From Candidatus Omnitrophota bacterium (GTDB lineage Bacteria > Omnitrophota > Gorgyraeia > Gygaellales > Profunditerraquicolaceae), in assembly GCA_023247875.1 (NCBI GenBank), contig JAHFFQ010000013.1, forward strand, positions 1 through 17,514: 17,514 nucleotides of DNA, given 5' to 3'. Shown piece after piece: positions 13,315-15,433 of the stretch; position 1 is the first letter of the stretch; each line of letters starts with the position of its first letter. A program made the position numbers and the translations under genes. Under the pieces are notes generated by a model, which had not been told where the DNA came from, did no database searches, and saw nothing but the letters and a program-made list of their open reading frames with translations.

Positions 13315-13356
13315 AATATTAACCCAATCCCATTCTACGCTCAACTCCCAAATTTA

Positions 13357-13427
13357 CAGGAGCGGCAGGACTTGAACCTGCAGTCACGGTTTTGGAGACC
13401 GTTGGTTTGCCATTAACCGACGCCCCT
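13357..13427 (-). tRNA. tRNA-Trp, anticodon CCA
   Basis: The minus strand folds into a complete cloverleaf. The acceptor stem is AGGGGCG with CGCTCCT (one G-U pair). The D arm is GGTT/AACC. The anticodon arm is ACGGT/ACCGT around loop CTCCAAA, giving anticodon CCA. A 4-nt variable loop (GACT) follows, then the T arm GCAGG/CCTGC with loop TTCAAGT and discriminator base G. The 3' CCA is not encoded (the next bases are TAA). Length is 71 nt without CCA. A tRNA-Trp just upstream of secE is a common bacterial arrangement and supports the call. Confidence 0.96.
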
Positions 13428-13441
13428 ATAAAACATTCTTT

Positions 13442-13551
13442 TACCGGCTCATACCTTGCTTAAAAATTTAATTTGAAATTTTTAAGCATTCGCCGGTATA
13501 AATTCGGCTAATAACTTATGTCGCGCTATGTGCGCTCCATAAGTTATAGCC
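13442..13551 (-). repeat. 110-bp double-hairpin element, copy B (rpmG to tRNA-Trp)
   Basis: There are two adjacent stem-loops. In transcript order, hairpin 1 is 13551-13506: a 4-bp and a 10-bp stem separated by a 1-nt bulge (arms CTTATG/CATAAG at the top), with a loop containing GGAGCG and ATAGCG. Hairpin 2 is 13498-13442: a 7-bp base TACCGGC/GCCGGTA, then a conserved asymmetric internal loop (GAAT on one side, TATGA on the other), and a 13-bp AT-rich stem around GCTTAAAAATTT with a 6-nt loop. The first paired base is directly next to the rpmG stop codon. tRNA-Trp begins 14 nt after the last paired base. It matches copy A in length, layout and conserved blocks. Confidence 0.85.
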
Positions 13552-13704
13552 TCATTTAATTTCTTTATGCGGGGTATGCTTGTGACAGGACCTATTGCAG
13601 AACTTATTAAGTTCAAGCCTATCCTGATGCAACTTTTTATTTTTTGTCGTCGTATAATTCCGATTTTTGCAAACCGTACATTCTAAAGTTATGATTTCGC
13701 GCAT
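13552..13704 (-). CDS. rpmG: 50S ribosomal protein L33
   Basis: This is a small 50-codon gene. The product is [20 protein letters not shown] at the N-terminus, then a lysine-rich segment, and [21 protein letters not shown] at the C-terminus. The NYTTTKNKK and KxHTPHKE segments are diagnostic of L33, which binds 23S rRNA near the E site. Cys9 and Cys12 form the first half of the zinc ribbon. The second half is Cys36 and Cys40, a C-x3-C spacing instead of the usual C-x2-C (as in KYCPxCRKHT), through one extra residue. The ATG at 13704 has AGAGGGA about 9 nt upstream. rpmG near tRNA-Trp and secE is a common arrangement. It is flanked on both sides by the 110-bp double-hairpin element. Confidence 0.96.
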
Positions 13705-13723
13705 TTTTATTATCCCTCTATCT

Positions 13724-13833
13724 ATCCCGGCTCATATAATGTAGCAAAATTCTCTTCAATAATTTTGCTACATTCGCCGGGATTAGTTCGGCCATACAAC
13801 TTATGTTCGCTATCCGCTCCATAAGTTGTGGCC
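13724..13833 (-). repeat. 110-bp double-hairpin element, copy A (tRNA-Thr to rpmG)
   Basis: It has the same architecture and exact length as copy B. Hairpin 1 (13833-13790) has a 4-bp stem, a 2-nt bulge, then a 10-bp stem CAACTTATG-type with a 14-nt loop holding GGAGCG and ATAGCG. Hairpin 2 (13783-13724) has an 8-bp base ATCCCGGC/GCCGGGAT, the same internal loop blocks (GGCGAATG and TATGAGCC), and a 14-bp upper stem AATGTAGCAAAATT with a 9-nt loop. Between the copies, paired positions change together (C-G to T-A twice in hairpin 1, C-G to A-T in the base of hairpin 2), and the upper stem of hairpin 2 differs almost wholly yet still pairs. It starts 7 nt after the tRNA-Thr 3' end and stops 19 nt before the rpmG ATG. 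Confidence 0.85.
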
Positions 13834-13840
13834 TTACTAA

Positions 13841-13913
13841 AGCTGGAGGCGAGAATTGAACTCGCGACCCCGTCCTTACCAAGGACGTGCTCTGCCAACT
13901 GAGCTACTCCAGC
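13841..13913 (-). tRNA. tRNA-Thr, anticodon GGT
   Basis: It is a complete cloverleaf on the minus strand: acceptor stem GCTGGAG/CTCCAGC, D arm GCTC/GAGC with the AGTTGGCA loop, anticodon stem CGTCC/GGACG around TTGGTAA (anticodon GGT, reading ACC and ACT), and a T arm CGAG-type with loop TTCAATT. The discriminator base is T. The 3' CCA is not encoded. Length is 73 nt. It appears to be the first gene after the promoter at 14053-14081. In E. coli a tRNA-Thr precedes tufB and secE; here rpmG follows and no tuf gene lies between. Confidence 0.97.
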
Positions 13914-14052: not shown

Positions 14053-14100
14053 AGTTTATACTAAAATGGGGGGTTTGTCAAGATTTTTTTAGCTTTTTTT
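14053..14100 (-). promoter_or_regulatory. Strong sigma70-type promoter with UP-like A-tracts for the tRNA-Thr-rpmG-tRNA-Trp-secE unit
   Basis: On the minus strand, a perfect -35 TTGACA (14081-14076) is followed by a 17-bp spacer and TAAACT (14058-14053). An alternative -10, TATAAA (14060-14055), has a 15-bp spacer. Directly upstream of the -35 are two A7 tracts (14100-14094 and 14090-14084), starting 10 bp apart, as in UP elements of rRNA and tRNA promoters. Expected start is near 14046. An 8-bp palindrome TTACGTAA (14038-14045) lies at the expected start. The leader to tRNA-Thr (to 13914) would be about 130 nt. Apart from the weak hairpin I see nothing else in it. Confidence 0.7.
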
Positions 14101-15433
14101 AATGATTGGCGTTAAGTTTTGCCTCCAGCGATTTAACTCTTTCTTTCAATTCCTGAATCCCTTTTTGCTGTTCTTTCATTGCCTCAACTAACAGGCCCAC
14201 AAGGTACTCATACTCTACGGCCTTGGTTTTCATCTTGTCATCGGCGGTATGCACTACTTCAGGCACCACCTTTTCCACCTCCTGGGCGATCATGCCCATG
14301 TGAAGTTTAGTATCTACAGAGGCATCCTTCCATCTGAAATCGACTCCCCGCAAAGAAAGGACTTTTTTCAAAGCATCGGAAATGGTGACAACATCCTTTT
14401 TCAGGCGGATGTCAGAACTGACGTGGTAATTGCCGTAGACTCCGGTGACGTTGCCGTTGGCTGCCAGAACCAAACCATACGCGCTGCCATATATATCGCC
14501 GGTACCGTTTATGCCGAAATACAATGAGCCATCGTTATTATTTCCGATGCTGGAGCTCTTGTTGCTTGATGAGGCATAAAACCTCATTGAAGGAAAGGTG
14601 GTGCTGGAGAGCCGAAGGTTACTCATCCAGCCGCCGGAATAAGTAGTAGTGGTATAAGCATCCAAAGCCGCTGCCGGGATAGTCGTTCCGATACCGACAT
14701 TTCCGGCCGTCACCCTTAAACCATTACCCTGTATGTCCACATAACTCTTACCATAAGCGGTGCCTGGATTCATGACAATTCCTGTTGCAAAAGAAAGCGT
14801 CAGCTGCTGATAAGGGGCAGTCCAGGCGCCAGAGGAACGATAAATGCCATAACTCGAAGAAGGAGTTCCCGCAGACTGATGCCAATATATCCCATATGTG
14901 CCATCTGTGCCGACAGTGCCTCCGTTTGGATTTAAAATCAGGCTGGAATAATTAGTCCCGATATTTCCATTTACATCCAGTTTATATCCCGGGGCCGTCG
15001 ACCCGATGCCGACGTTGCCACTATCTTTAATAACCATCCTGGCATTTCCGGTCACGCCAAAGATATAATCTCCACCGTGAATTAAAGAGAATTCAAGGCT
15101 GCGGGCAGTTGAACTGGATGATTGAGTTTCTATAAAGTAATTATTCCCCGATCCTGGCAGCATACCGGTTCTTGAAAAATCAAACCATGTAAAAAGTCCG
15201 TCTCCCACATTTGAGTTTGTATGCCGAAAACTCCCACCACCATGAATATGCAGTTTCCCCCCAGGGCTCGTCGTCCCGATGCCTAAGCTAGTTGCAACAT
15301 AGAGCTGGTTATAGCTTCCGTAAGGGGAGGGATAATAGGTGGTAATGGTGATGGATTCATCGGCAAAAATGGAATGGCTAAAGGCAAGAAGTAAAATTCC
15401 GAAAGAAAATAAAAGTTTTTTGGATTTAAGCAT
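14099..15433 (-). CDS. Secreted tail-fibre-like protein with C-terminal peptidase S74 intramolecular chaperone domain
   Basis: The product is 444 residues. Residues 1-24 look like a signal peptide (lysines, then a hydrophobic core, ending SIFA before DES). Directly after is TITTYYPSPYGSYNQLYV, a motif I associate with secreted Omnitrophota proteins. The middle is rich in Gly/Ser/Thr/Asn and carries three spaced copies of a VGIGTTxP-x3-L-D/H motif (near residues 50, 140 and 245), typical of phage tail-fibre and similar trimeric fibrous proteins. The C-terminus is an S74 domain: SDIRLKK starts at Ser340, with Lys345 five residues on, matching the Ser-Lys self-cleavage pair of the family, then MGMIAQEVEKVVPEVV and a terminal coiled coil. 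By family knowledge the domain trimerises the fibre and then cuts itself off, here releasing about 105 residues. The start has an excellent AAGGAGG. The gene lies 15 bp after rsmA. The actual target or role is unknown. Confidence 0.88.
   Translation of the reverse strand: MLKSKKLLFSFGILLLAFSHSIFADESITITTYYPSPYGSYNQLYVATSLGIGTTSPGGKLHIHGGGSFRHTNSNVGDGLFTWFDFSRTGMLPGSGNNYFIETQSSSSTARSLEFSLIHGGDYIFGVTGNARMVIKDSGNVGIGSTAPGYKLDVNGNIGTNYSSLILNPNGGTVGTDGTYGIYWHQSAGTPSSSYGIYRSSGAWTAPYQQLTLSFATGIVMNPGTAYGKSYVDIQGNGLRVTAGNVGIGTTIPAAALDAYTTTTYSGGWMSNLRLSSTTFPSMRFYASSSNKSSSIGNNNDGSLYFGINGTGDIYGSAYGLVLAANGNVTGVYGNYHVSSDIRLKKDVVTISDALKKVLSLRGVDFRWKDASVDTKLHMGMIAQEVEKVVPEVVHTADDKMKTKAVEYEYLVGLLVEAMKEQQKGIQELKERVKSLEAKLNANH

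Follow-up and report, generated by a model that had tools for sequence, protein, structure and literature searches.

Two folded elements flank rpmG in the stretch of DNA analysed here (17,514 nucleotides, hereafter the window), and these probably belong to a family of short palindromic DNA repeats, mobile but non-autonomous, that extends across the Omnitrophota and works like REP/REPIN or MITE sequences. Individual copies are best read as being kept as intercistronic hairpins with a putative function. The source genome comprises 1.38 Mb in 177 contigs; on the minus strand of the window the order of features is tRNA-Thr, element A, rpmG, element B, tRNA-Trp, secE, nusG, rplK, rplA and rplJ. Each element is made up of an outer stem, hairpin 1 (HP1) and hairpin 2 (HP2). 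We searched with three covariance models, built from the two window copies (R1), from 21 copies (R2) and from HP1 only (R3).

13841..13913, minus strand: tRNA-Thr (ggt)
13725..13840, minus strand: element copy A in the tRNA-Thr/rpmG spacer (outer stem, HP1 and HP2); R2 match 13721-13843, 130 bits, E 3.3e-31
13836..13840, minus strand: copy A outer stem, 5' arm TTAGT, abutting the tRNA-Thr 3' end, with its partner ACTAA at 13783-13787 (from sequence and fold)
13788..13835, minus strand: copy A HP1, with basal dinucleotides AA (13834-13835) and GA (13788-13789) and a second GA-type internal loop (GA 13818-13819)
13725..13782, minus strand: copy A HP2, with a 7-bp base, GA 13774-13775 facing GA 13732-13733, 2 bp, a 5-nt 3' bulge (13736-13740) and the upper stem
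13552..13704, minus strand: rpmG (ribosomal protein L33; Ribosomal_L33), the gene separating copies A and B
13442..13558, minus strand: element copy B in the rpmG/tRNA-Trp spacer; R2 match 13438-13561, 116.2 bits, E 1.7e-27
13554..13558, minus strand: copy B outer stem, 5' arm TAAAT, formed by the final rpmG codons and the first base (T) of the TGA stop, with its partner ATTTA at 13499-13503
13504..13553, minus strand: copy B HP1, with GA 13552-13553 opposite GA 13504-13505
13442..13498, minus strand: copy B HP2, with GA 13490-13491 opposite GA 13449-13450 and a 5-nt 3' bulge (13453-13457)
13356..13428, minus strand: tRNA-Trp (cca)

An earlier sequence-only reading had described double-hairpin elements with the same order of parts in both rpmG spacers, and we found these on the minus strand at those places. 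The paired changes that it named between the copies, at 13797-13828, 13793-13830 and 13726-13781 against 13512-13546, 13509-13548 and 13443-13497, were seen as described. It had put the length of each element at 110 bp, but they span 116 nt (A) and 117 nt (B), the 5-bp outer stem having been overlooked. As the outer stem of copy A reaches 13840, this copy begins directly at the tRNA-Thr 3' end rather than 7 nt after it. Copy B does lie at the end of rpmG, but not 0 nt beyond the stop, its outer stem overlapping the final codons of the gene and the first base (T) of the stop. Facing GA dinucleotides had also been missed. They lie below HP1 (GA/GA, with AA on one side in copy A), and further pairs are seen inside HP1 and near the HP2 base.

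HP1 is about 60 nt long, and its plan consists of a 5-bp TNART outer stem, GA/GA, a 4-bp stem, a short 3' bulge, a stem of 9-10 bp, a second GA-type loop and a variable tip. HP2 follows with a GC-rich base, GA/GA, 2 bp, a 3'-side bulge usually of 5 nt, and a long upper stem. The two window copies gave RNA folding z-scores of -9.35 and -8.76, values matched by 0 of 200 shuffles, and DNA folding z-scores, for both strands of both copies, of -8.87 to -11.01. Elsewhere in the window, next to the ribosomal operon, positions 14099-15433 of the minus strand encode a protein of 444 aa that has an N-terminal TITTYYPSPYGSYNQL stretch and whose C-terminal domain is Peptidase_S74 (endosialidase chaperone).

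We identified many further copies by covariance-model search of the source genome and its relatives, a check that the sequence-only reading had proposed, so that the pattern does not depend on two copies. With R1 we found 16 matches at E<=10 in the source genome, including both window copies and one opposite-strand shadow, and matches in 43 of the 58 genomes of a set of relatives (own included). R2 gave 30 matches in the source genome at E<=10, of which 24 reach E<=1e-3, and at E<=0.001 it detected the element in 268 of 384 genomes from the phylum, with 9 candidates scored per genome; the genome-set searches of both models were run with stricter filters. The 22 R3 matches in the source genome comprise 20 HP1 units and two opposite-strand shadows. 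Four other genomes hold 103, 64 (G405), 29 and 11 R3 units (by contig places, G406 corresponds to G219, of the same class, G404 to G031 and G407 to G052), and three one-contig genomes of the class hold 14, 46 and 14. In one of these (G128, contig C1, 2.0 Mb), 20 units lie on the plus and 26 on the minus strand, as counted by eye; also by eye, 3 of the 46 units lie between about 0.55 and 1.1 Mb.

A pattern scan of GTDB recovered at least 118 stretches, and among the matches listed 73 of 80 fell in records titled Omnitrophota or Omnitrophica. One copy each was found in records titled Planctomycetota (L115, 3.4 Mb), Neomarinimicrobiota (L141, 2.6 Mb) and Peregrinibacteria (L146, 1.3 Mb), and these single copies outside the phylum are most likely stray Omnitrophota contigs. 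A record titled 'Planctomycetales' has its Y1 transposase genes at the same places as G031, a genome of the window's family. Carriage by viruses or plasmids was considered and rejected, with 0 matches in viral contigs searched with one pattern and 0 in plasmids searched with one copy. A known Rfam family was similarly rejected: the proposed Rfam check gave no match for either element, only the two tRNAs matching in the window, and the best other match has an E of 0.88, far under its cut-off. Our literature searches, confined to open-licence papers, brought up no earlier description of the element family. Within G406, 53 HP1 units (58 matches less three opposite-strand shadows and two weak units) average 63% identity with a maximum of 90%, and 0 of 1378 pairs exceed 95%, indicating that there has been no recent burst in the part of this genome examined, and in agreement with the earlier view that the two copies are not a simple recent duplication.

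The element is kept for shape while its letters change, a conclusion well supported by alignment A3 (21 copies), in which 94.7% of 788 stem cells pair and two-sided changes occur at 24 of 38 pairs. Covariation in A3 reached 0.419, against 0.153 in shuffled alignments and at most 0.085 with slid partners. In A5 (56 HP1 sequences) 97.6% of 1064 cells pair, with 154 two-sided cells against 43.5 shuffled, and in A6 (58 matches in G406) 96.6% of 1101 cells pair, with 223 against 67.4; kinship alone can lift sequences above such shuffles without structure, but the slid-partner controls fall low, at up to 14 (A6), 18 (A5) and 16 (A3) two-sided cells. The number of pair types was raised in A6 (45 against 33.1 shuffled) and unraised in A5 (22 against 21.5) and, for further pair types, in A3 (41 against 42.6). 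The claim that shape is under selection or otherwise maintained is therefore borne out, two-sided changes lying far above both controls. The sequence-only reading was also right to allow for a cruciform DNA element. The sequence-only reading had also held that dispersed copies beside transposases, and lacking covariation, would make this an ordinary repeat; the copies are dispersed, but covariation is strong and the sole transposase class tested (Y1_Tnp) is unlinked.

The facing GA dinucleotides are almost invariant: in A5 the 5' position has GA in 55 of 56 sequences and the 3' position in 56 of 56, and in G406 the corresponding figures are 50 and 52 of 53. The loci of A4 and A5 were picked by a fixed pattern with ATGAG, and A3 consists of high-scoring matches of the two-copy model, so that the invariant inner AACTTA/TAAGTT and the low wobble in these sets stem partly from the selection of loci. 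The model-found sets A3 and A6, the latter taken from 40 regions in the upper part of the G406 score list, nonetheless agree with the pattern-picked A4 and A5 on the TNARTGAG start and the GA positions. Wobble and mismatch are rare: 6 GU and 6 AC among 788 cells in A3 (GU 0.8%), 1 GU and 2 AC among 1008 in A5 (GU 0.1%), and 28 GU and 14 AC among 953 in G406 (GU 2.9%). The scarcity of wobble counts in favour of a DNA repeat. GU pairs do exceed AC in G406, however, a pattern better suited to a single strand that folds, whether RNA or ssDNA, than to a cruciform.

We investigated the placement of copies beside genes on 100 (L103-L202) of the 118 loci, each up to 8 kb, with genes called by a simple longest-ORF method and with units that come from related genomes, so that counts are not independent. 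For 150 of the 176 R2 matches on these loci, 46 were sense and 63 antisense between co-directional genes, 14 lay between convergent or divergent genes, 3 were inside ORFs and 24 at edges; 109 of the 123 placed copies are thus between co-directional genes. A TAA occurs at a set position in 17 of the 46 sense matches. Among HP1 units of at least 30 bits, those in sense near a 5' gene have N=A in 31 of 34 and R=G in 24 of 34, and in 23 of the 34 the unit itself provides the stop codon, a TAA in one and the same position, whereas antisense units have R=A in 68 of 70 and N other than A in 49 of 70. The outer-stem N is associated with gene context (Fisher p 3e-9 for units of at least 30 bits; p 8e-10 in an earlier set of 34 + 73 units), in tables that leave out units not fitting TNART (27 of 176 and 28 of 181).

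We additionally identified 38 inverted doublets, with spacers of 17-269 nt, among the 176 units that score 30 bits or more on the 100 loci; window copies A and B are not doublets. Neighbouring units of this score lie within 300 nt of each other in 38 of 39 convergent pairs, 0 of 12 divergent pairs and 6 of 25 direct pairs. Thirty doublets are between co-directional genes, five between other genes and three at edges; the 30 co-directional ones have the TAAGT unit next to the upstream stop in 18 cases and next to the downstream start in two. Keeping weaker units gave 19 and 3 of 33; this set holds 181 of 196 R3 matches, selected by hand and including six units below 30 bits, the rest being L180 (cut by an end) and 14 matches of 25-28 bits, mostly opposite-strand shadows. 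The orientation of doublets relative to transcription suggests a host function beyond mobility.

This placement bears on two alternatives. Somewhat unlikely, in our estimate, is that a mobile two-hairpin element has turned into operon punctuation while still spreading through a shape-recognising enzyme outside the known REP/RAYT systems. The upstream stop codon would then lie inside the outer stem and the downstream ribosome-binding site directly behind the mirror-image stem, with orientation set by transcription, and the elements would separate, protect or decouple adjoining cistrons, and tRNAs from mRNAs as at rpmG. We consider it unlikely that the family is a cis-acting structured RNA for operon punctuation, whose transcript hairpins keep tRNAs apart from mRNAs, stop exonucleases or determine where RNases cut between cistrons. 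The strong covariation in A3, A5 and A6, the preference for co-directional genes, the stop-side bias of TAAGT units, the association of outer-stem letters with gene context and the excess of GU over AC in G406 all speak for such an RNA, but copies lie in sense about as often as in antisense, with no single orientation to a regulated gene. An RNA would consequently bear GA/GA in one half of the copies and UC/UC in the other, which makes this reading the less likely. Wobble is also rarer than in tRNA stems (78 of 1756 cells at the same loci, a control biased by a tRNA finder that itself favours pairs), and the lack of an Rfam match counts against it insofar as it means that the element is not described in Rfam.

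Occupancy of the rpmG site varies between genomes. Counted by eye in 21 same-genus genomes (own included; 21 of 27 rows), the site between rpmG and tRNA-Trp is filled in 8, empty in 8 and reduced or unclear in 5, with L236 entered as empty without a located rpmG end, L245 as unclear, and L232, L246 and L251 (contig without the tRNAs) and G011 (filled, L019) left out. The 13 genomes of 21 in which the site is empty, reduced or unclear argue against the structured-RNA reading. In the nearest relative by NusG (95%), the rpmG-tRNA-Trp side is empty. Across six same-genus genomes, 15 comparisons at this site gave 88 two-sided and 61 one-sided pair differences; two-sided changes in place would suit a structured RNA, and, since these elements look inherited, they also speak against a purely selfish, decaying repeat. 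A common HP2 lettering (GAATGC...) points to probable common descent at this site, repeated insertion at one hot spot being a possible alternative. With both orientations, variable occupancy of the rpmG site and a few repeats like target duplications, the earlier proposal that a structured RNA serves in processing or protects 3' ends is unsupported in its original wording.

For the preferred reading of a mobile DNA repeat, we looked for signs of insertion in copies that come from related, sometimes orthologous, loci. Next to the HP2 end there was no excess of short target duplications (166 copies, 4.92 against 4.88 permuted). In a wider window, direct repeats scoring at least 15 occurred in 6 of 201 distinct copies (L055, L056, L105, L108, L138 and L160), besides the tandem copy L197, against a shuffled expectation of 0.225 on average and 2 at most (80 shuffles). 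Four of these (L055, L056, L105 and L108) have a common repeat of 18-19 nt that matches the start of a tRNA-Arg, and an intact tRNA-Arg lies behind the right repeat in L055 (tcg) and in L105 and L108 (tct); none was called beside L056. As the coordinates of L108 are those of G007:C22, a locus to which L056 can be aligned, the two are probably one orthologous insertion. In L160 a 17-nt repeat equals the 3' part of a tRNA-Glu(ttc) that is intact on the right, and in L138 the repeat is weaker (21 nt, two mismatches, offset 42). These 17-19-nt direct repeats at tRNA genes look like target-site duplications. In the five tRNA-type cases the right repeat begins 9-17 nt past the model end, so that the mobile unit probably has a short tail. 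No duplication was found around doublets (51 doublets, best score 9; these include 10 doublets of G406, some with weak units). Against mobility stand the fact that most copies have no target duplication, the long repeats being confined to six copies, and the lack of a recent burst noted above for G406. A further idea, that the outer-stem 5' arm is target sequence of the host which the 3' arm, acting as guide, recognises, had arisen from empty rpmG alleles, which already hold TAAAT; it was dropped because the tRNA cases place the direct repeat outside the outer-stem 5' arm.

Under the preferred reading, the core unit would be HP1, followed either by HP2, as at rpmG, or by a second, inverted HP1 on the far side of a variable palindrome. 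A putative trans-acting enzyme may recognise the folded DNA by its shape and GA mismatches, inserting new copies into gene spacers and tRNA genes and duplicating some 17-19 nt of the target. Copies would then survive where they are least harmful or of some use, in the gap from a stop codon to the next ribosome-binding site, and their hairpins would be kept. Observations in favour of this reading are the dispersed copies, the inverted doublets, the varying occupancy of one site, the opposite orientations in one spacer, the stop-supplying termini and the direct repeats at a few tRNA genes; transposition in trans, DNA as the acting molecule and any benefit to the host are inferred.

A true REP/REPIN moved by a RAYT (a Y1 HUH enzyme), with folded ssDNA hairpins, a bulged mismatch and TGAG rather than GTAG as the 5' tag, is a reading that we regard with considerable doubt. 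Inverted doublets, mismatches within the stem, the tag-like TGA/TGAG with stop codons nearby, and the presence of Y1_Tnp (IS200/RAYT-type) genes in 49 of the 58 genomes of the relatives set would all fit it. Against it, there is no GTAG or CGTC tag, units beginning TNARTGAG; direct repeats occur at tRNA genes, which to our knowledge are not expected of Y1 enzymes; and of the 43 genomes with R1 matches, four (G029, G033, G037 and G053) have no Y1 match. Of 72 Y1 loci taken, 69 are distinct, three of G407 repeating G052 (about 0.28 Mb in all), and around these 69 genes R3 gave only two matches at E<=0.1, of 20.6 and 29.3 bits. Accepted HP1 units score from about 30 to 79 bits, so the 29.3-bit match may be a decayed unit. 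A RAYT-driven REP is thus unsupported around the Y1_Tnp genes looked at. This also weighs against the mobile reading, for which neither a linked transposase nor an autonomous relative was found; in a check for autonomous partners on loci up to 8 kb, 1 of 39 convergent neighbour pairs lay more than 300 nt apart. Y1_Tnp genes are common in these genomes yet, where looked at, stand apart from the element.

Among known systems, integron attC sites are imperfect hairpins with variable stems that are recognised by shape, and casposons make duplications of 14-15 bp and target tRNA genes. Unlike attC sites, the Omnitrophota elements are single and lie between core genes such as rpmG, and no cassette array was noticed; as with casposons, a few appear to be inserted at tRNA genes. 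The long direct repeats around a few copies are also a likeness to the IS1202 group of insertion sequences, for which PMC10132070 gives target duplications of 16-28 bp. The ends of the Omnitrophota element are hairpins, unlike the simple terminal inverted repeats of the IS1202 group and casposons, both possible makers of MITEs.

The closest known kind is REP/REPIN. The REP trait of multi-copy, interspersed, extragenic palindromes was found, with 20 units in the source genome and 3 of 150 matches inside ORFs. According to PMC3733652, the termini of GTAG REPs supply stop codons and CGTC REPs have no linked transposase; the Omnitrophota element resembles both in being a short palindrome interspersed between genes, near upstream 3' ends, with stop-supplying termini and inverted dimers, and resembles the latter in that no linked transposase was found. 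Set against the same account, its units begin TNARTGAG instead of with a GTAG or CGTC tag; it is longer, the unit of about 60 nt being joined by a second hairpin to make 116-117 nt at rpmG, where REPs have 20-40 bp; it has facing GA/GA at up to three levels and stems that vary by paired changes; and its antisense copies lie just before ribosome-binding sites, with 17-19-nt direct repeats at a few tRNA genes. Going by PMC3116915 and PMC8266576, inverted hairpin doublets with a spacer are shared with REPINs, and an imperfect stem with conserved mismatches with the REPs of E. coli; unlike in REPINs with RAYT, no RAYT linkage was found, G406 units average the low identity given above, and the singlet has a second hairpin of its own. 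The element was not filed as a REP/RAYT member because the tag and the enzyme linkage fail.

If our reading is true, this is a large family of folded repeats, without an Rfam match, in a little-studied phylum known mostly from metagenomes, and it shows how the fold of a repeat can persist throughout a phylum even as the sequence diverges. It raises the questions of which enzyme moves the element, the usual RAYT linkage being absent, and whether the operons of these small genomes owe their organisation to hairpins at stop codons and ribosome-binding sites. There is practical importance in this, because discovery pipelines could take such covariation alone for a structured RNA.

Finally, it is very unlikely that the palindromes are kept perfect by a DNA process alone (template switching or hairpin-templated replication repair) without selection for shape. 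In favour of such a process, two-sided changes are almost purely Watson-Crick, and the central palindromes of the doublets inspected differ in sequence with pairing retained, but the facing GA/GA survives where such repair should make perfect pairs, and some copies decay by one-sided changes (L302 against L307).

Other element sites are also common to several genomes, some with decayed copies, and elements in opposite orientations occur in one spacer in different genomes (L084 against L298, L303 and L058). HP1 is gone between its flanking dinucleotides, with HP2 kept, in L319 as compared with L052, and in L239. At the rpmG-tRNA-Trp site, L241 and L242 have a near-same HP2 and left flank with a different HP1 between the two GA, as if block-swapped. 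A whole-element tandem duplication was seen at L197 (3742-4007), with near-identical HP2 and a common flank, and two different HP1.
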